Of a stretch of DNA of 64,000 nt, positions 35,248 through 44,239 are shown piece by piece. The stretch's first letter is position 1. Each line of letters starts with the position of its first letter. The translations under genes were made by a program, and so were the position numbers. The stretch is from Modicisalibacter xianhensis (GTDB lineage Bacteria; Pseudomonadota; Gammaproteobacteria; Pseudomonadales; Halomonadaceae): positions 248,001 to 312,000 of the forward strand of contig NZ_FOPY01000003.1 of NCBI RefSeq assembly GCF_900113605.1. The letters run 5' to 3'. The notes beneath the pieces were generated by a model that made no database searches, was not told the DNA's origin, and worked only from the letters and a program-made list of their open reading frames with translations.

Positions 35248-35265
35248 CCTTACAGAATTGTAAGG
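35248..35265. promoter_or_regulatory. Perfect 7-4-7 dyad upstream of tctC, candidate operator
   Basis: CCTTACA (35248-35254), GAAT, TGTAAGG (35259-35265). It lies just after the putative tctC promoter and between two divergent units that encode an IclR-type and an OmpR-type regulator. Either could bind it; a downstream position would suit a repressor. It is too short and T-poor to be a terminator. Confidence 0.5.
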
Positions 35266-35342
35266 TGGCTGTCAGTTCCTGGCAAGCCAAGCGTCTTGCC
35301 ATCGTTTCGTTGCAACACACTTCGCAAACCGAGGAAACGACA

Positions 35343-36329
35343 ATGTCAATGAAAACGCCGCTCAAACTTCTGGCCGCAGCGTCCCTGACGCTCGGCACCA
35401 GCATGGCCATGGCCTTCGAGCCGGAAGGCAAGGTCGAATGTCTGGCGCCCGCCGATCCGGGTGGTGGCTGGGACTTTACCTGCCGTAGTGTGGGCAACGT
35501 GATGGAAGAGCTCGACCTGGTGCCGGGCAGCGTACAGACAATCAACATGGCCGGTGCCGGTGGCGGTGTCGCTTACGCGCATACGGTCAGCAAGCGTGCC
35601 GGTGACGACCAGTTGTTGATTGCTGCCTCTACCGCCACGACCACTCGTCTCGCCCAAGGCCAGTTCCAGGGTCTGGATGCCGACATGGTCAACTGGATCG
35701 GTGCGGTAGGTGCCGATTACGGCATCATCGCCGTGTCCAAGGATTCCGAATACAAGGATCTGCCGTCACTGATGAACGCGCTGAAGGAAGACCCACGCAG
35801 CGTCAAGTTTGCCGGTGGTAGCGCCAAGGGTGGCTGGGACCACCTCAAGGTCCTCATCGCGGCCAATTCCGCAGGGGTCGATAACCTGCCGCGCATTCCC
35901 TACCTGTCGTACAACAACGGTGGTGAAGCGATGACCCAAGTCGTCGGTGGTCACGTCGATGCCTTCACCGGTGATATCACCGAAGCTCAGGGCTTCATGG
36001 AGTCCGGTGACCTGCGTGTCCTGGCGGTGCTGTCCGATGAGCGTCTGCCTGGCGAGTTCAGCGATATCCCCACCGCCAAGGAGCAGGGCATCGATGCCGT
36101 AGGTCCCAACTGGCGCGGTTTCTACATGCCGGCAGATATTCCTGACGATGCCAAGCAGTACTGGGTCAACGCCGTCGATGAACTCTACCAGAGCGAAGAG
36201 TGGAAGCAGGTCATGCAGAACAATGGCCTGATGCCGTTCCACGTCAGCGGTCCCGAGTTCGAAGAGTTCGTCAAGCAGCAGATCAATGACATCGAGTCAC
36301 TGTCCAAAGACATCGGGCTGATCAAGTAA
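35343..36329 (+). CDS. tctC: Tripartite tricarboxylate transporter substrate-binding protein TctC
   Basis: A 328-residue periplasmic protein. The ATG at 35343 has GAGGAAAC upstream; the frame extends further 5' without a ribosome site. A signal peptide (about 1-22, 'GTSMAMAFEP') precedes the mature TctC/Bug fold, with 'APADPGGGWDFTCRSVG', 'NMAGAGGGVAYAH', 'NNGGEAMTQVVGGHVDAFTGDI' and 'GPNWRGFYMPADIPDDA'. TctC captures citrate, tricarballylate or related carboxylates and delivers them to TctAB. It overlaps tctB by one base and is divergent from the regulator operon. Confidence 0.92.
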   Translation: MSMKTPLKLLAAASLTLGTSMAMAFEPEGKVECLAPADPGGGWDFTCRSVGNVMEELDLVPGSVQTINMAGAGGGVAYAHTVSKRAGDDQLLIAASTATTTRLAQGQFQGLDADMVNWIGAVGADYGIIAVSKDSEYKDLPSLMNALKEDPRSVKFAGGSAKGGWDHLKVLIAANSAGVDNLPRIPYLSYNNGGEAMTQVVGGHVDAFTGDITEAQGFMESGDLRVLAVLSDERLPGEFSDIPTAKEQGIDAVGPNWRGFYMPADIPDDAKQYWVNAVDELYQSEEWKQVMQNNGLMPFHVSGPEFEEFVKQQINDIESLSKDIGLIK

Positions 36330-36781
36330 TGACACTCAACGACCGCATCTTCGGAATACTGATGCTCGTCCTGGCCGTCGCGTACGGCTGGGGCGCCACC
36401 CAGTTTCCGGAGCCGTTCGGCGGGGCCGAGTCGGTCGGCCCCGAAACCTTTCCCAAGGTGATCGCGGTGGTGCTGGCCCTGTCCAGTCTCTACCTGATCG
36501 TCAAGCCGGATCCCGACAATGCCTGGCCCAAGGGGCGCATTGCCCTGGAGCTGATCATCGCCGTGCTGGTGCTGATCGCCTACACGCTGCTGCTGGAGCC
36601 GCTCGGCTTCATTCTCGCTACCCTGCTGGCGGTGGGTACGCTGTGCTGGCGCATGGGCGCCGCGCCGGTGCGGGCCTACGTGACCGGCGGTGTGGCAGGT
36701 GTCGTGGTCTATTTGCTGTTCACTTTTGCCCTCGACCTGGCCTTGCCGTTGGGTGTGCTTAGCGTGCTGGAGGGAAGCTGA
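36329..36781 (+). CDS. tctB: Tripartite tricarboxylate transporter small membrane subunit TctB
   Basis: A 150-residue protein with four predicted membrane helices (about 7-20, 40-55, 72-105, 112-140), the size and layout of TctB. 'GPETFPKVIAVVLALSSLYLIV' is the most family-like segment. It is the poorly conserved small subunit of the TctCBA secondary transporter. It overlaps tctC by one base (TAATG) and tctA by one base (TGATG), so the three subunits are translationally coupled. Confidence 0.88.
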   Translation: MTLNDRIFGILMLVLAVAYGWGATQFPEPFGGAESVGPETFPKVIAVVLALSSLYLIVKPDPDNAWPKGRIALELIIAVLVLIAYTLLLEPLGFILATLLAVGTLCWRMGAAPVRAYVTGGVAGVVVYLLFTFALDLALPLGVLSVLEGS

Positions 36782-38304
36782 TGGAAACCCTGGGTTATCT
36801 GATCGACGGGTTCGGCGTTGCCCTGCAGCCGCACAACCTGATGTTCGCGCTGATGGGGGCCTTCTTGGGTACCCTGATCGGCGCGCTGCCCGGCCTTGGG
36901 CCGGCCAACGGCGTGGCCATTCTGATCCCGCTGGCCTTCACCCTGGGCCTGCGCCCGGAAACCGCGCTGATCATGCTCACGGCGGTTTATGCGGGCGCCA
37001 TGTACGGCGGGCGCATTTCCTCGATTCTGTTGAACATTCCCGGCGATGAGCCGGCGATGATGACCTGCCTCGATGGCTACCCGATGGCCCAGAAGGGCAA
37101 GGCCGCCGAAGCGCTGGCCATTTCGGCGATCGCCTCGTTCATGGGCAGCCTGATCGCCACGGTGGGCCTGATTTTGCTGGCGCCGCTGTTGGCCAAGTTC
37201 GCCTTGACCTTCGGGGCGGCGGAGTACTTCGCGTTGTTCGTGCTGGCCTTCGCTACGCTGGGCGGCATTACCGGCAAGAACCCGGTCAAGACCATCCTGG
37301 CCGCGGCCATCGGCCTGATGATTGCCACGGTGGGCATCGATTCCACCGGTACGCAGCGTTTCACCTTCGGCATTCTGGAACTCTACGAAGGCATCGATTT
37401 CATCATCGCCATCGTGGGGCTGTTCGCGATCTCCGAGCTATTGTTCTTCATCGAGGACCGCGCCGGTGGCGGCAAGGGGCCGATGGTGGTCAACAAGCTC
37501 AAGCTCTCCTGGAAGGAAGTGCGTGAGATCATGCCGTCGAGCATTCGCGGCGGCATCCTTGGCTTCATCGCCGGTGTGCTGCCGGGGGCCGGGGCCTCGC
37601 TGGGCAGCTTCATCGGCTACACTCTCGAGAAGAAGGTGGTCGGCAAGAAGGGTTATTTCGGCGAGGGCGACCCGCGTGGTGTCGCCGGCCCCGAAGCAGG
37701 CAATAACGGCGCCTCGAGTGGCGCGCTGGTGCCGATGCTGACGCTCGGCGTGCCGGGCAGCGGCACCACTGCGGTGCTGCTGGCGCTGCTGATCTCGATG
37801 AACATCACGCCCGGGCCGCTGATGTTCACCCAGAACGCCGACATCGTGTGGGGCGTGATCGCGGCGCTGCTGATCGGTAACTTCCTGCTGTTGTTGCTCA
37901 ACATTCCGCTGGTGGGCATCTTCGTCAAGCTGCTGTCGGTACCGCCGAAGTACCTGCTGCCGATCGTGACCATGGTGGCCTTCGTGGGCATCTACTCGAT
38001 CAGCAACTCAGCGTTCGACCTGTACTTCATGGTCGCCTTTGGGGTGTTCGGCTATTTCTTGCGCAAGCTGGAAATTCCCATGGTACCGATCATCCTCGGT
38101 TTGCTGCTGGGGCCTGAGATGGAAAAGAACCTGCGCCACACACTGGACATCGCTGACGGCGACTGGACAGCACTGTGGGACAGTGGCCTGGCCATCGGGT
38201 TGTGGATCGTGGCTTTCGTCGGCCTGGTGCTGCCGTACATCGTCGGTCCGATTTTGCGTCGTCGCATGCAGGCAGCGGCTGGACACGGTAACCAGACGGA
38301 TTGA
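36781..38304 (+). CDS. tctA: Tripartite tricarboxylate transporter large membrane subunit TctA
   Basis: A 507-residue protein with about 12 predicted helices. Family motifs are 'GALPGLGPANGVAILIPL', 'YAGAMYGGRISSILLNIPGDEPAMMTCLDGYPMA', 'GVLPGAGASLGSFIGY' and 'GVAGPEAGNNGASSGALVPMLTLGVPGSGTTAVLL'. The two inverted Pro-Gly-x-Gly-type repeats mark its internal duplication. It forms the transport path of the cation-driven TctCBA carboxylate importer in the inner membrane. It ends the operon; a very stable hairpin follows 38 bases later. Confidence 0.94.
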   Translation: METLGYLIDGFGVALQPHNLMFALMGAFLGTLIGALPGLGPANGVAILIPLAFTLGLRPETALIMLTAVYAGAMYGGRISSILLNIPGDEPAMMTCLDGYPMAQKGKAAEALAISAIASFMGSLIATVGLILLAPLLAKFALTFGAAEYFALFVLAFATLGGITGKNPVKTILAAAIGLMIATVGIDSTGTQRFTFGILELYEGIDFIIAIVGLFAISELLFFIEDRAGGGKGPMVVNKLKLSWKEVREIMPSSIRGGILGFIAGVLPGAGASLGSFIGYTLEKKVVGKKGYFGEGDPRGVAGPEAGNNGASSGALVPMLTLGVPGSGTTAVLLALLISMNITPGPLMFTQNADIVWGVIAALLIGNFLLLLLNIPLVGIFVKLLSVPPKYLLPIVTMVAFVGIYSISNSAFDLYFMVAFGVFGYFLRKLEIPMVPIILGLLLGPEMEKNLRHTLDIADGDWTALWDSGLAIGLWIVAFVGLVLPYIVGPILRRRMQAAAGHGNQTD

Positions 38305-38390: not shown

Positions 38391-40415
38391 TCAAAAATCA
38401 GTCGGGGGCGGGGCTGCCTGGAGGCCTTCCGGTGGTTGCCGGTCTGCTCCCCAACTGCGCTGTACCTTGGCTATGACGGTTTCGATGCTTTGGGGATCGA
38501 CATTCGAAAGGTCGCCTGGCTCGAGCGGGTCATAGTGGAAGATGTACAGCCGGGAAGCGAAATCTTCGAAGGGTAGTGAGGACTCACCGAAGCGCTCGCC
38601 ATGCCCTGAGGTGCTGACTACGACCTCATCGCCCCAGTCCTGACCACTGTCGTTATTGGGGTTGAAAAAGTACATGCGCATGACCTGCTGGGGATCGAGG
38701 CTCACCCGCAACAGAGTGATGGCATGCCAGCCAATGAAGCGTGCCGCGCTGTCGGTTACGGCGATACCGGCCGGCTGGGGATGAATCAGCGGTTGGTTGC
38801 CGTTGTAGAACGGATGGTAGCTGGCATAGAAGTGGCGCAGGAATTCGTCGAGGCGGTAGAGGTGGCCTGTCGCGATATCCACGGCAATGCGAAAGCCGCG
38901 CCCGGTCCACCAGCCATGAAACTCCGGATTGATCCAGCGATGGGGGTCTGCGTCGCGGCCGATGCAGCGTCGCCCCATTTCCGCATAGATGCGATCCAGA
39001 TGTGGCACGACCAACAAGGATACGGGGTCGAGGTCGATCGGCAACTGCTTGGCGACGCCCTCCGGATTTTCTCGCGATGACACCGGCTGCCCCTCGAAAT
39101 GCATGATGATCTCATCATCGCGAGTGGCCCAAGCCACCATCTGCAGCAGATAGTCGGGGTCATTGTAGGACCACATCGATAGTGCGCGTGCCGACTGGCA
39201 GGTCGGGTTGTTGCCCTGGCCGACACCGAGCGGTTGACCCAGCATGCAGAGCACGCCTTCCATGAGACGGGCTTCCGGCGAGGGTGTGTCGCCAAAGGCG
39301 ATGTGCAGACGCTGTTTGGAGTAGGGCGACAACGGCAGGGCGACCTGTCGCCATAGTGCAGGAGCGACCGGGGGTTGGTAGAGAATGCCTCGTTCCAGCA
39401 GCAGGGCCAGGCCGTAGAGGGATTGCGGCGTCTGCGGGTGTACGCCAAGGTCGACCATGGCATGCACCAGCTCTCGGTAACAGAGCAGACAGTCGCGGCC
39501 CGTGCTGGAAAGCCCGAGCGCCTCACTCAGCAGGTGGTCGCCACGGTCGAGCAGAAAGCGCACCAACTGAGTGTGGTAGGGCGAGACGAGGCCCGTGTCG
39601 TGCATGGCCCGCGCGAAACCAGTGGCCTCGTATTGCAGGGCCACGTTGTCCATGGCTTCCAGGCGCTGCTGATAGATATCGAGACCCGGATCTTCGCGGC
39701 AGCCATTCGTGGTTCCGAAAAGACTACTTATCAGCCGGTCGGCGCCTTGGCCACTGCTGCCCAATTCGATGTTGGGATTGGCCTGGCAGGCAGCGATCTG
39801 CAGGATCATCTGCTTGACGGCATCGACCTGGATGGGGCGCTGCTCGAGGATGCGCCAGATCTCGTCGATCAGCTTGTCGACAATGTGCTCATAGCCAATG
39901 CCATCGGCCAGATACTGGAACAGGCGTCTCGTTAGCAATGCCAGGTTGCCCTGGCGCGTTCGCTCGGCCTCACTGGGAGGCATGAATAACAATTCCAGGT
40001 TGAGCGCGAGTACCTGGGTCAGGTGATGGTGCGCCTGCTGCTGAGAAATCGAAGGATGCTGGTAGTGGCCACGGGCGACCGCCATCATGCGCAGCTCGCT
40101 CAAGGCCTCGAGCATGACGGTTTCTGTCGCCGAGGCAGTCAGCGAATGCTTGGCCAGGGCGGGCAGCAGAATCTGAGGGTGTGCCCAATCCGACCCTTCG
40201 AATATGCCGGCGGATTCCAGGGTGGGGAGGCGGCTTTCGAGCACTTCGCAGCCGCCCTCGGCCATCAGAACGCGACGAGCGGCGTGCAGAACACGACCGC
40301 TCTTGAGCGCCTTGGCAAACGTGCTGGTCTGGGCCAATGCCTGTATGGCATCGTCCAGCTTGGCCAGCAATGCGTTCAACTCCCCACCGCCGGGGATATG
40401 TTCTTCGTTGCTCAA
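38391..40415 (-). CDS. Uncharacterised 674-residue protein with a probable C-terminal papain-like domain
   Basis: I do not recognise a named family. No signal peptide or membrane helix is seen. Residues about 1-390 look all-helical. Residues about 390-630 show a papain-like pattern: Gln400, then Cys406 in 'GQGNNPTCQSAR' (the six-residue Gln-Cys spacing found in papain), His564 in 'IGWHAITLLRVSLD', and Asn585 in 'MYFFNPNNDSGQDWG', followed by 'STSGHGERFGESSLPFEDFASRLYIF'. The His is followed by a beta-strand, a turn and the Asn, as in cysteine peptidases of that fold. The C-terminus is Pro-rich. It lies 21 bases after an ATP-grasp gene on the same strand. A peptidase or amidase working with that ligase is my inference, not an established function. 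Confidence 0.55.
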   Translation of the reverse strand: MSNEEHIPGGGELNALLAKLDDAIQALAQTSTFAKALKSGRVLHAARRVLMAEGGCEVLESRLPTLESAGIFEGSDWAHPQILLPALAKHSLTASATETVMLEALSELRMMAVARGHYQHPSISQQQAHHHLTQVLALNLELLFMPPSEAERTRQGNLALLTRRLFQYLADGIGYEHIVDKLIDEIWRILEQRPIQVDAVKQMILQIAACQANPNIELGSSGQGADRLISSLFGTTNGCREDPGLDIYQQRLEAMDNVALQYEATGFARAMHDTGLVSPYHTQLVRFLLDRGDHLLSEALGLSSTGRDCLLCYRELVHAMVDLGVHPQTPQSLYGLALLLERGILYQPPVAPALWRQVALPLSPYSKQRLHIAFGDTPSPEARLMEGVLCMLGQPLGVGQGNNPTCQSARALSMWSYNDPDYLLQMVAWATRDDEIIMHFEGQPVSSRENPEGVAKQLPIDLDPVSLLVVPHLDRIYAEMGRRCIGRDADPHRWINPEFHGWWTGRGFRIAVDIATGHLYRLDEFLRHFYASYHPFYNGNQPLIHPQPAGIAVTDSAARFIGWHAITLLRVSLDPQQVMRMYFFNPNNDSGQDWGDEVVVSTSGHGERFGESSLPFEDFASRLYIFHYDPLEPGDLSNVDPQSIETVIAKVQRSWGADRQPPEGLQAAPPPTDF

Positions 40416-40436
40416 ACAGACTCCTCTCTCACCGAA

Positions 40437-41660
40437 TCAGACATAGAAGTCAAGGTCTTCCTGATGCTTGAGAAGATCACGCATCGTATGCGGATCGTCG
40501 CCGAAGAAATAGATCAAGCCCCAGTGAGTTCCGAACGCCGTACGCTTGGTAACGGTTTCCTCGAGCGGCGGCGTCAGTTCGTGTGACTCGAAATACTCAT
40601 GCTGCTCGGTTTCCTCGGGTATTTCCAGTCGGCTGACGACGCGACGGCGTGGGTATACGCCGAAACACCCGGCATAGCCCTTGGCATCCACCACCTCTTG
40701 AGGGAAGAAGGCGGTAATCTCTTCCTCGGTGGTCTTGGGGTCGAAGGACAGCACCAGGCCCTGATAGGCGTTGAAGCCATAGGCGCGTTCGAGCAATTCG
40801 AATACCTTGAAGCCAGGCGGGCGATAAGCCACTTCGCCAAAATACATTTCGCCGTCACTAGTAACGAAGTATTCAGGATGGATGAATCCGAACTGGATAT
40901 CGAATGTCTTGATGAGTTTTTCGATCTGCGCCTTGATTTGCGGCCGGTATTTTTCCAACTCCGGTGTGGCGGGCACGAACACTGAATAGCCCAGGGTAAC
41001 GTATTCCGAAATGTTCAAGAAGCGGATCTTGCCGTCATGGATCCACGCTTCGACGGCAAATTCCCAGCCGTCCAGATGGCTTTCCATCAGTACGGGAAAT
41101 TCTTCCTCTGGAATGGTATCGATTTCGTCCGGTGTGCGAATCACGCGATGGCCCAGGCAGCCCGCCTTGTCGAAGGCCTTGAGGTGAATGGGGTCGTTGG
41201 GATCGCCGTCGAGCTTGAGCAGGGTCTGGTTGACACGCTTGAGAAAGCGAACCACATCGTCGCGGTCATGAGCTTCCTCGAAGATCCCTACGCGAATCCC
41301 GCCCAACTGTGCACGCCGCTTCATCAGTGCCTTGTCGCGGAACAGAATGGATTGGCCATATAGCCGAGGATTATCCATTAGCACGGAGTTGATCGCACCG
41401 GCCCATTCCACGGTTTCCTCGAACAGCGGAATGGCTACGTCCACGCCCATGTCCTTGAGCGTTTCGGCAATTTCCATGGAGCGGTCGTTCAGACGCTCGA
41501 AATTCCACGGAAGGTAGGGGATGGAATGCTGTTCGCAATATTCCTGAGCCCAGTCGGGGGCAACGATGACATAGCGCCGGTCAAAGCGTTCCAGAGCCTC
41601 GATGGCATTGAGGCTCCAGCCTAGCATGGCCACGTAACCTTTTTCCGGATTCTTGTCCAT
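40437..41660 (-). CDS. ATP-grasp family ligase, unknown substrate
   Basis: A 407-residue cytosolic protein. A Rossmann-like N-terminal part ('YVAMLGWSLNAIEALERF...YVIVAPDWA') precedes the ATP-grasp domain. That domain has 'RDKALMKRRAQLGGIRVGIFEE' at its start, 'GCLGHRVI...FPVLMESHLDGWEFAVEAWIHDGKIRFLNISEYV' for the nucleotide-binding strands, and 'FGFIHPEYFVTSDGEMYFGEVAYRPPG' with the metal-binding Glu and Arg. ATP-grasp enzymes join a carboxylate to an amine or thiol through an acyl phosphate. The substrate cannot be read. AAGGAG lies 9 bases before the ATG. The leader contains a perfect dyad, and the gene is followed by the papain-like gene 21 bases on, making a two-gene unit. Confidence 0.8.
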   Translation of the reverse strand: MDKNPEKGYVAMLGWSLNAIEALERFDRRYVIVAPDWAQEYCEQHSIPYLPWNFERLNDRSMEIAETLKDMGVDVAIPLFEETVEWAGAINSVLMDNPRLYGQSILFRDKALMKRRAQLGGIRVGIFEEAHDRDDVVRFLKRVNQTLLKLDGDPNDPIHLKAFDKAGCLGHRVIRTPDEIDTIPEEEFPVLMESHLDGWEFAVEAWIHDGKIRFLNISEYVTLGYSVFVPATPELEKYRPQIKAQIEKLIKTFDIQFGFIHPEYFVTSDGEMYFGEVAYRPPGFKVFELLERAYGFNAYQGLVLSFDPKTTEEEITAFFPQEVVDAKGYAGCFGVYPRRRVVSRLEIPEETEQHEYFESHELTPPLEETVTKRTAFGTHWGLIYFFGDDPHTMRDLLKHQEDLDFYV

Positions 41661-41687
41661 TATGCTGCTCCTTTTTTGTGTGACTTA

Positions 41688-41715
41688 TGAGCGAAGGTAA
41701 ATGGCTTTTCGCTCA
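41688..41715. promoter_or_regulatory. Perfect inverted repeat in the leader of the ATP-grasp gene
   Basis: TGAGCGAA (41688-41695), 12 bases, TTCGCTCA (41708-41715). It starts 27 bases upstream of the ATP-grasp start codon, outside the ribosome site. It may be an operator or an RNA hairpin in the leader. Confidence 0.45.
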
Positions 41716-41762
41716 GTAGCTTTAAAGGTAGCAGCCGCTGAGGTTAATAAAATGCCAAACTT

Positions 41763-41798
41763 TTCGTTAAATCTTTCTAATGCTTTTATTCGTTAAAT
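41763..41798. repeat. Direct repeat TTCGTTAAAT, 26-base period
   Basis: The 10-mer TTCGTTAAAT occurs at 41763-41772 and again at 41789-41798, in the AT-rich region between the ATP-grasp and ffs promoters. The 26-base period is about two and a half helical turns. A tandem regulator-binding site is possible but unproven. Confidence 0.4.
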
Positions 41799-41840
41799 AA
41801 AAAGTAAGGCCTTTATGCAGGATGGCCATAACCTCCAGGC

Positions 41841-41869
41841 TTGATCGTGCCCCCTTGGGCTGTTATAGT
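41841..41869 (+). promoter_or_regulatory. Putative sigma-70 promoter of ffs
   Basis: TTGATC (41841-41846), an exact 17-base spacer and TATAGT (41864-41869). It would start transcription near 41876, leaving a 5' leader of about 68 bases ahead of the mature 4.5S RNA, to be removed by processing. Confidence 0.6.
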
Positions 41870-41943
41870 GCTGCCTCGTTCCACAAGGCCTTGAAGAACA
41901 AGCGCTTGTGGTCGCCTGGGCAAACAGCTTCAGGCGCGTTTGT

Positions 41944-42051
41944 GGTGGCCCATCGGTCCTCCCGCAACGCTAAACCGCGAACCCCGCCAGGCCCGGAAGG
42001 GAGCAACGGTAGTGGTGGCTGCGTGTGCCGGGATGTGGCTGGTGGGCCGCC
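41944..42051 (+). ncRNA. ffs: Signal recognition particle RNA (4.5S RNA)
   Basis: The conserved SRP RNA elements are present in order: TCCTCCCGCAACGCT near the 5' side, the apical loop GGCCCGGAAGGGAGCA, and GCGTGTGCCGGGATGTGGCTGG on the 3' side. The ends pair well: GGTGGCCCA at 41944 with TGGGCCGCC ending at 42051. The molecule of about 108 bases matches the bacterial 4.5S type. It binds Ffh to target membrane proteins. Its position just before dnaX is common in gammaproteobacteria. The exact mature ends are inferred from pairing. Confidence 0.93.
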
Positions 42052-42187: not shown

Positions 42188-44239
42188 ATGAGCTATCAGG
42201 TACTGGCCCGCAAGTGGCGCCCACGCACCTTCCATGAATTGGTCGGACAGGAGCATGTCCAGCGTGCCTTGGTCAATGCGCTGGACCAAGGGCGGTTGCA
42301 TCATGCCTATCTGTTCACCGGCACCCGTGGGGTAGGCAAGACCACCTTGGCGCGTATCCTGGCCAAGTGCCTCAACTGCGAGAGCGGCGTGACTTCGTCG
42401 CCCTGTGGCCAGTGCGGTACCTGTCGCGAAATCGATGATGGCCGCTTCGTCGATTTGATCGAAGTCGATGCGGCGTCACGAACCAAGGTCGAAGACACCC
42501 GGGAACTACTCGATAACGTGCAGTACGCGCCAACGCATGGGCGCTACAAGGTGTACCTCATCGACGAGGTGCACATGCTTTCGACGCACAGCTTCAATGC
42601 GCTGCTCAAGACGCTCGAGGAACCGCCGCCCCACGTCAAGTTCCTGCTGGCAACCACCGATCCGCAGAAACTGCCTGTCACGGTACTGTCGCGCTGCCTG
42701 CAGTTCACGCTCAAGAACATGCCGCCCGAGCGTATCGTGGAGCACTTGGCCAAGGTGCTTCAGGCAGAAGGGGTGCCGTTCGAGGATAGTGCGCTCTGGC
42801 TGCTCGGCAAGGCGGCCGACGGCTCCATGCGCGATGCCATGAGTCTCACGGACCAGGCAATTGCCTTTGGGCAGGGGGAGATCGCACGCGCCGATGTGGC
42901 GGCCATGCTCGGCACGCTCGATCATCGACACCTGCTGGCTCTGGTCGAAGCATTGGCCGAGGTCGATGCAGCGCGTGTGCTGGCGGAAATTGCCAGCCTG
43001 GCTGAGCAGGGGCCCGATTTTGCCGGGGTGCTTGACGACCTGACCGGCGTGTTTCATCGCTTGGCCATTGCCCAGATGGTGCCTGAGGCCCTCGACAACG
43101 GACATGGTGATCGAGACGCACTCCTGACGTTGGCGGTACGCTTCACGGCTGAAGACGTCCAGCTTTATTACCAGATCGGCCTACAGGGTCGCGCCGACAT
43201 GGACAGCGCTCCGGATGCTCGCACCGCCCTGGAAATGACCTTGCTGCGCATGCTGGCCTTCCGCCCTCAGGGCGTACCCAAACCGGCGCAGACACCGTTG
43301 CCGCTGCGAGGACAGGGCGAGCACAGCTCCACGCACGATGGCACGGCTGCCGGTGGCGCCCCGGTGACACCTGGTCGCCCTGCTGTGCAGGCCCCCCGGC
43401 AAGCCGAACCGGCAGTATCTCCCGTCCCGGAAGCTATGGCGTCGATGCCTTCAGCTCCCAAAATGCCATCGTCCGATGCCTCGATCCTGCAGCCGCCGGT
43501 ATCCGAGCCGCAAGACGATATGAATGTGTCCAGCGATTCGGCCAGCAGCGGGCACGCCGAGGCGCCTCCCCCCTGGGAATACCCTGACGAGGGCGTGCCG
43601 GTTGCTTCCCGGCAGGAGGGGAACCCCGCCGAAGGCGACGCTTCGTTGCCCGTGGCTGCCGACGTGGAGCCCGTAGGGAAGCCTATGGCGGAGCCGCTTC
43701 CTGAGCCGACTACGCCCCTCCCCGAGGAGGTGGCTCCGCCAGCCCCCCCGCGGGACACGGCACCCGTGTCGGAAAACGTATCGCCCGTGGTGACGGCGCA
43801 TGAGGAAGCATTGCAAACCCGTCAGCAACCGGGTCCCACTTCACTCGACCATGCCGCCTGGCTCGATCTGTTTCCCCGCTTGAGCCTGGCTGGTCTGACG
43901 CGCAATCTGGCAGCACATTGCATTGTCGACCATGATGACGGCCAGACAGTGCAGTTGCGTTTGGCACCGAGCCAGGCCGCAATGAATGCCGAGGTGCATG
44001 TCGAGCGGGTACGACAGGCTCTGGCCGACGCCGGTATCGTGCGGCGCGTGACCATAGAGCCTGCCGAGCACCCCGAGGGGATCGAGACACCCAAGGCGCG
44101 AAGCGATCGCGAGGCTGCGGAGCGTCATGCCGCAGCGGTTGAAGCGTTGCGCGATGACCCGCATATCCAGCAACTGGAACAGGCTTTCGGTGCGCGCCTG
44201 CTCGTACAGACCGTTTCGCCCCAGGGGCAAGCGGAGTGA
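42188..44239 (+). CDS. dnaX: DNA polymerase III subunits gamma/tau
   Basis: A 683-residue clamp-loader ATPase. It begins 'MSYQVLARKWRPRTF' as dnaX products do. The AAA+ core (about 1-370) has Walker A 'GTRGVGKTTLAR', a zinc module with four cysteines in 'CLNCESGVTSSPCGQCGTC', Walker B 'LIDEVHML' and sensor 'LSRCLQFTL'. A long Pro/Glu-rich linker (about 365-560) leads to the tau domain, which binds the polymerase. I saw no A-rich slippery heptamer of the E. coli kind in the linker, so a short gamma form made by frameshifting is not evident. ybaB and recR follow in the usual order. Confidence 0.96.
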   Translation: MSYQVLARKWRPRTFHELVGQEHVQRALVNALDQGRLHHAYLFTGTRGVGKTTLARILAKCLNCESGVTSSPCGQCGTCREIDDGRFVDLIEVDAASRTKVEDTRELLDNVQYAPTHGRYKVYLIDEVHMLSTHSFNALLKTLEEPPPHVKFLLATTDPQKLPVTVLSRCLQFTLKNMPPERIVEHLAKVLQAEGVPFEDSALWLLGKAADGSMRDAMSLTDQAIAFGQGEIARADVAAMLGTLDHRHLLALVEALAEVDAARVLAEIASLAEQGPDFAGVLDDLTGVFHRLAIAQMVPEALDNGHGDRDALLTLAVRFTAEDVQLYYQIGLQGRADMDSAPDARTALEMTLLRMLAFRPQGVPKPAQTPLPLRGQGEHSSTHDGTAAGGAPVTPGRPAVQAPRQAEPAVSPVPEAMASMPSAPKMPSSDASILQPPVSEPQDDMNVSSDSASSGHAEAPPPWEYPDEGVPVASRQEGNPAEGDASLPVAADVEPVGKPMAEPLPEPTTPLPEEVAPPAPPRDTAPVSENVSPVVTAHEEALQTRQQPGPTSLDHAAWLDLFPRLSLAGLTRNLAAHCIVDHDDGQTVQLRLAPSQAAMNAEVHVERVRQALADAGIVRRVTIEPAEHPEGIETPKARSDREAAERHAAAVEALRDDPHIQQLEQAFGARLLVQTVSPQGQAE

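Follow-up and report, generated by a model that had tools for sequence, protein, structure and literature searches.

A linked ATP-grasp ligase and putative calpain-like peptidase in Modicisalibacter xianhensis and their co-inheritance with an HDAC-like deacetylase

The synthetase of glutathionylspermidine synthetase/amidase (GspSA) has an ATP-grasp fold, and amidoligase clusters combining ATP-grasp, GNAT and papain-like (DUF3335) proteins were reportedly described by Iyer et al. in 2009. GspSA is a single bifunctional chain composed of an ATP-dependent synthetase and a CHAP amidase (PMC6272389; this and the other papers cited by PMC number are drawn on in excerpt), and the association of DUF3335 papain-like proteins with GNAT is mentioned, citing Iyer et al., in PMC10318531. 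In this work we analyzed a 64,000-bp stretch of the Modicisalibacter xianhensis genome (the window; contig NZ_FOPY01000003.1, positions 248,001 to 312,000). On its minus strand it carries a gene for a 407-residue ATP-grasp ligase and, after a spacer of 21 bases, a co-directional gene for a 674-residue protein (hereafter the peptidase). A preliminary description of this DNA had taken the two open reading frames (ORFs) for a unit of an amide ligase and a probable papain-like peptidase, with its own AT-rich control region and no other partner. Both ORFs lie where that description had placed them.

The pair resembles GspSA in that an ATP-dependent ligase is coupled to a predicted papain-fold amidase, and differs from it in that two genes are involved and the ligase belongs to a different ATP-grasp family. 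Since neither GSP_synth nor CHAP was among the Pfam-type families found for the two proteins, GspSA is an analogy rather than a relative. The clusters ascribed to Iyer et al. share the general idea of an amide ligase with a papain-fold protein, whereas the 674-residue protein has no match to DUF3335. Comparison of genomes revealed that the ligase and peptidase genes are linked, that their active-site residues are invariant, and that a third gene, encoding a histone deacetylase (HDAC)-like protein, is inherited together with them; this last finding is new beside the pair itself.

Scanning of GTDB genomes revealed 553 relatives of the peptidase, and the best 80 were kept. In 77 of these 80 loci an ATP-grasp gene lies just upstream in the same direction; the remaining three, all from Halomonas (L042, L049, L077), contain the peptidase gene with no ATP-grasp gene nearby. 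When evenly drawn genome samples were studied, each including the window's own genome, ligase and peptidase were found in identical genomes: the same 8 of 274 from the class and the same 8 of 299 from the phylum, one of the latter belonging to another class. Linkage was then followed in 119 distinct loci (121 before two duplicate places were removed), with gene positions determined by tblastn with the proteins and by a composition-scored gene caller. The ligase gene was located no more than 2 kb from the peptidase gene in 104 loci, being co-directional and upstream in 89, downstream in 1, convergent in 10 and divergent in 4. Thus, gene order was rearranged while linkage was kept, a pattern that speaks for a common function of the two genes. 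A maximum-likelihood tree of 47 rows, of which 10 were chosen by hand from the best 80 loci (five stop-containing rows were left out), contained a canonical clade and a clade uniting the convergent arrangements with locus L109, each with support of 100/100. Conservation in distant genomes, on which the preliminary description had made its reading depend, is therefore seen both in the identical distribution and in the 104 linked loci.

The third gene adjoins the pair in five of the 119 loci. It follows ligase and peptidase in L021, where the contig end cuts it, and in L107; the order is peptidase-HDAC-ligase in L109, the gene is convergent to the peptidase in L119, and in L193 it lies between peptidase and ligase. 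We disregarded HDAC matches of 32–39% identity situated at 2.8–5 kb from the peptidase in L046, L066, L078 and L080, as well as the case of L144, in which about 3.2 kb separate an orphan ligase copy from an HDAC gene. The L107 protein matches PF00850 with 311 bits against a cut-off of 27.9 (E 1.1e-92), and the catalytic residues of HDACs (His-His, Asp/His/Asp, Tyr) are invariant in all 18 aligned sequences. Among proteins of known structure, HDAC6 and bacterial HDAC-like amidohydrolases come closest and share with the third gene the PF00850 domain and the invariant catalytic residues. The third gene differs from them in its N-terminal 40–46 residues or so, which lie outside most matches to other HDACs, and in its distribution, since in the samples searched the subfamily was present solely in peptidase-bearing genomes.

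To delimit this subfamily we used a threshold of at least 340 bits with the L119 protein as query, which was set after a gap in the scores had been seen. In the class sample the subfamily was present in 7 of 8 peptidase-bearing genomes (not in G160) and in none of the 266 others, whose best score was 272 bits. In the order of G171 it was found in 16 of 17 peptidase-bearing genomes (not in G687) and in none of the 68 others, which scored 199 bits at most, and 21 chosen peptidase-bearing genomes, one of them the source of the query, contained it in 18 cases (not in G286, G608 and G687). With each genome counted once, overlaps having been removed by hand, the pooled figures are 29/33 with the peptidase and 0/333 without it, or 28/32 if the query source G454 is set aside. 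Fisher tests gave p values of 4e-13 for the class and 2e-16 for the order, on the assumption of independent genomes, which these are not. Some HDAC match is present in 151 of the 274 class genomes; because weaker homologues are this common, the claim of co-inheritance is limited to this subfamily. The window's genome has a stop-free HDAC copy on a different contig (C43:69277-70353) and a further HDAC-like copy (L209, G000:C23:51976-53074) that contains an in-frame stop.

Thus, the statement that the pair has no other partner holds locally, where no constant further neighbour was found across lineages, but fails genome-wide, where the deacetylase tracks the peptidase. The reading as an amide ligase with a papain-like peptidase is supported by the conserved pair, by the residues and by the predicted fold.

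The 674-residue protein matched no family of Pfam, NCBIfam or PADLOC up to E 1 and no PDB sequence up to E 10 (phmmer), which agrees with the earlier impression that it belongs to no family that can be named. In particular, neither calpain C2 (PF00648) nor PF00112 nor other peptidase families in Pfam matched it at that limit, and PF00648 was also unmatched by alignments of 56 and of 20 relatives up to E 5. Profiles of these two sets and a 17-row domain profile gave weak unrelated matches or none against PDB sequences, and the calpain family profile had no match in 143 genomes, nor in 14 controls. Matches of relatives to DUF2891, ApbA_C, DUF7700, PqqD, DUF4274 and PriC were weak and scattered (best E 0.01) and were judged to be due to chance. 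A role in defence was set aside as no PADLOC family matched; so was a phage or mobile origin, as no match was found in 50,697 phage records or in viral contigs with the single protein or with alignment patterns, and a single match, to a 1.83-Mb replicon, among 72,556 plasmid records.

The putative catalytic residues are as noted previously, with Gln400 and Cys406 six residues apart. Together with His564 and Asn585 they are invariant in the 103 sequences of our first alignment. In a wider set (192 loci, 144 distinct sequences, down to 38% identity) Gln400 and Cys406 are invariant in 140/140 covering sequences, with 4 of the 144 lacking coverage, and His564 and Asn585 in 129/129, with 15 lacking coverage. 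The loss of Cys406 or His564 in relatives, which the preliminary description had named as speaking against its reading, was seen in none of the covering sequences. Among 44 distinct sequences of less than 60% identity, 75 positions between residues 20 and 657 are invariant, and Cys406 is the sole invariant Cys among eight. The catalytic set of m-calpain is C105, H262 and N286, with 157 residues from Cys to His and 24 from His to Asn; the corresponding distances here are 158 and 21. Calpains have the motifs GHAY around the His and NPW around the Asn, which the contexts GWHA and NPN of our protein resemble. Gln400 we take to be the Gln of an oxyanion hole. The order and the invariance of the four residues are those expected of a clan CA cysteine peptidase.

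The predicted structures are consistent with this assignment. The full-length AlphaFold2 model has a mean predicted local distance difference test score (pLDDT) of 66, with values below 50 over residues 394–505; the C-terminal domain modelled alone has a mean pLDDT of 59 and a predicted template modelling (TM) score of 0.60, with pLDDT below 50 over its residues 10–131. The underlying alignments were shallow (56 rows, drawn from the best 80 loci alone, with at least 68% identity to the window protein). When the full model was used for a fold search, m-calpain was second (probability 0.66) and staphopains were fourth and eighth (0.33 and 0.21), the remaining matches being mostly helical proteins of low probability. 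With the domain model, the first 26 of 289 PDB matches were all clan CA proteins, calpains and staphopains, with calpains first; the best match had E 0.0076 and probability 0.69, and the calpain matches had low TM-scores of 0.3 or less. In a viral structure library the matches were mixed, some of the leading ones being papain-like. A clan CA fold is therefore likely for the C-terminal half, and in this low-confidence domain model the papain-like fold proposed earlier ranks closer to calpain than to papain. The protein resembles calpain and papain (clan CA, C2 and C1) in the order and spacing of Gln, Cys, His and Asn and in these first 26 fold matches, and differs from them in an additional helical half of about 380 residues, in its bacterial host and in its recurrent ligase partner.

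The 407-residue protein matches ATP-grasp_4 (PF13535) with E 2.7e-5 and 24.3 bits, under the curated cut-off of 27. When a profile of 26 ligase sequences was run against the PDB, it matched two L-amino-acid ligases, 4wd3 and 3vot, and a phosphoribosylglycinamide synthetase (E 3e-4 to 4e-4), and the active-site Glu/Glu/Arg residues align with those of 4wd3. Wherever sequences from 108 loci cover them, K161, E193, E200, E263, E276 and R280 show no exchange; we assume that they include the ATP-binding Lys, the pair of Mg-binding Glu residues and the Arg of the ExAxR motif. It resembles ligases of the RizA/BL00235 type (4wd3, 3vot) in its ATP-grasp character and E..ExAxR active-site pattern, and differs in that similarity covers part of the ATP-grasp core only, the substrate pocket not being comparable. 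Among ATP-grasp ligases the protein is best placed with the L-amino-acid-ligase type, and it is probably active.

Taken together, these results led us to propose, with about an even chance of being right, that ligase, calpain-like peptidase and HDAC-like deacetylase form a cytosolic module for making, editing and breaking an amide conjugate. The ATP-grasp enzyme would spend ATP on activating a carboxylate, probably that of an amino acid or a short peptide, and join it to an amine, which may be a polyamine or some other cationic molecule. The 674-residue protein would act as a new calpain-like cysteine amidase/peptidase that hydrolyses or transfers that amide or a close relative of it via Cys406, His564, Asn585 and Gln400, while its helical half may bind the substrate or the partner. 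The zinc deacetylase of the HDAC6-like subfamily would deacylate this amine or conjugate. The genomes themselves show the genes, their invariant residues, the linkage of the pair and the joint inheritance of all three; the activities, the order of the steps and the substrate are those suggested by what is known of the families, and the cytosolic location by the lack of a signal peptide as judged by eye.

Several observations weigh against such a module. The HDAC gene lies away from the pair in 114 of the 119 loci, three of the seven class genomes with the subfamily match the query at merely 48–50% identity, and G160, G286, G608 and G687 possess the peptidase without it. In 15 of the 119 loci the 2 kb on either side of the peptidase gene contain no ATP-grasp gene; these are the three Halomonas loci and 12 others outside the best 80. 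The 11 members of these 12 that are present in the tree form, with one divergent copy, a clade of stand-alone peptidases supported by 100/99, and several genomes in this clade also have a linked peptidase copy. Since the stand-alone copies fall into one supported clade, the peptidase gene can stand by itself, which weighs against a strict two-enzyme unit. As for the peptidase itself, neither the sequence nor the three profiles gave a credible peptidase match, both models have pLDDT below 50 around the Gln and Cys, and no fold match had an E value as low as 0.001 with the full model, the domain model or the viral library.

There are weak hints, with evidence both ways, that the substrate is a cationic amine, for instance a polyamine. 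Of 20 chosen HDAC loci, eight have a GNAT gene next to the HDAC gene, all eight from one family, and the GNAT protein from L220 finds its best PDB matches in spermine/spermidine acetyltransferases (E 6e-10). A gene for a PotI-like putrescine permease ends 3 bases ahead of the peptidase ORF in L115. On the other side, the best NCBIfam model for the GNAT protein is rimI, under its cut-off, and the PotI-like permease was seen in one locus only, with 434 bits, under the cut-off of 476. HDAC10 is a polyamine deacetylase that requires a gatekeeper Glu (PMC5454378), and our profile lacks this Glu and has Ala in its place, although the position was read from an alignment with HDAC6 domain 1 beside a two-residue gap and is somewhat unsure. 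The most specific form of our proposal is a new pathway of polyamine-peptide (or other cationic amide) conjugates in marine and halophilic proteobacteria, with three enzymes that include a new bacterial family of calpain-like amidases and a dedicated HDAC-like deacylase, parallel to glutathionylspermidine/trypanothione metabolism and built from different families; in this form we consider it rather doubtful. It should be mentioned that a gene resembling a ketopantoate-reductase-type dehydrogenase (by eye) is conserved near the HDAC gene in one family (L218, L220, L223, L224, L226, L227).

The conjugate may instead be a modified protein: the ligase, in the manner of RimK, would load a protein side chain with an amino acid or acyl group, the calpain-like enzyme would process or de-modify it and the HDAC-like enzyme would deacylate lysine. 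This is the likeliest rival, because the ligase is far more conserved than the peptidase; its identity to the window protein is 76–96% across the set and that of the peptidase falls to 38%, as might be expected of a ligase with a slowly changing macromolecular partner. The nearest solved relatives of the third gene point in the same direction, as does the fact that calpains act on proteins. However, no gene for a protein substrate recurs beside the set, and L-amino acid ligases make up two of the ligase's three solved relatives, so that we treat protein modification as possible, with clearly less confidence than the make, edit and break module.

Less probable still, and in our opinion unlikely, is a purely biosynthetic pair in which the calpain-like protein transfers or condenses (as a transamidase) and both enzymes build a small peptide-like metabolite such as an osmolyte or an inhibitor. 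Many of the hosts are members of halophilic or marine genera. Papain-fold acyl transferases and peptide ligases have been proposed or shown (PMC2922099; references in PMC10318531), and in fungal E-64 biosynthesis an ATP-grasp enzyme and an amide synthetase link an epoxy acid, amino acids and polyamines, giving putrescine, cadaverine and agmatine amides that inhibit cysteine proteases (PMC12568646). Yet genes for export, resistance or tailoring do not recur next to the pair in different lineages, and co-inheritance with an HDAC-type deacylase suits editing or breakdown equally. Finally, a catabolic or scavenging set, in which peptidase and deacetylase would free the amine of imported acyl or peptidyl conjugates and leave the product to be recycled by the ligase, is suggested by the PotI-like gene in L115 and by TRAP-transporter-like genes (by eye) beside some stand-alone peptidase copies, but is very unlikely, as the transporters beside the pair vary among lineages and an ATP-consuming ligase would be odd in a catabolic unit.

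The features of the locus are collected in Table 1. The region upstream of the pair is indeed AT-rich, with a GC content of 0.42 at 41625–41874 compared with 0.50–0.69 in the remaining windows of the profile; contrary to the preliminary description, it is not exclusive to the pair, since a divergent gene for the bacterial small signal recognition particle (SRP) RNA (41951–42047, plus strand, 74.2 bits) shares the spacer and is followed by a dnaX-type gene at 42188. A sigma-70-like pattern at 41841–41869 (plus strand) is a possible promoter of the SRP RNA gene, about one such match being expected by chance.

Table 1. Positions in the window of the ligase-peptidase pair, its putative catalytic codons and its upstream region
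Feature	Position	Strand	Basis or remark
674-residue protein ORF	38391..40415	-	TTG start
Halves of the 674-residue protein	residues ~1-380, helical N-terminal; ~383-630, calpain/papain-like C-terminal		predicted models and fold search
ATP-grasp ligase ORF, probably L-amino-acid-ligase type	40437..41660	-	407 residues, ATG start
AT-rich intergenic region between the pair and divergent SRP RNA/dnaX	41661..41950	none	GC profile
Gln400 codon	39216..39218	-	invariant in 140/140 covering sequences
Cys406 codon, presumed nucleophile	39198..39200	-	invariant in 140/140 covering sequences
His564 codon, presumed general base	38724..38726	-	invariant in 129/129 covering sequences
Asn585 codon, within NPN	38661..38663	-	invariant in 129/129 covering sequences

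Downstream of the pair and convergent with it are genes of the TctC and TctA transporter families (35265–38304, plus strand), separated by a 150-residue ORF that could be TctB by position only; TctC and TctA were judged lineage-specific. The same conclusion was drawn for the GCS2 ligase, the Memo protein and the TRAP-like genes (by eye), each found beside single lineages. For example, the stand-alone peptidase of L117 (6413–10828) is flanked by co-directional genes of the Memo and GCS2 (glutamate-cysteine ligase) families within about 110 bases. A gene resembling an S4-domain RNA methylase (by eye) follows the peptidase in 22 loci, which looks like local synteny.

A literature search, which mostly missed subscription papers and drew on excerpts, returned no recognisable account of a ligase, calpain-like and HDAC-like set. 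Three co-inherited enzymes with invariant active sites, one of which, the peptidase, has no family model in spite of 553 relatives in one genome scan, represent a concrete and testable system. Pairs of a ligase and a papain-fold enzyme control thiol-polyamine conjugates elsewhere. If our proposal is true, it would open up a hitherto unknown metabolite or protein tag of halophilic and marine bacteria, and the 674-residue protein would give calpains a bacterial relative in fold whose role is regulatory or concerns small molecules.

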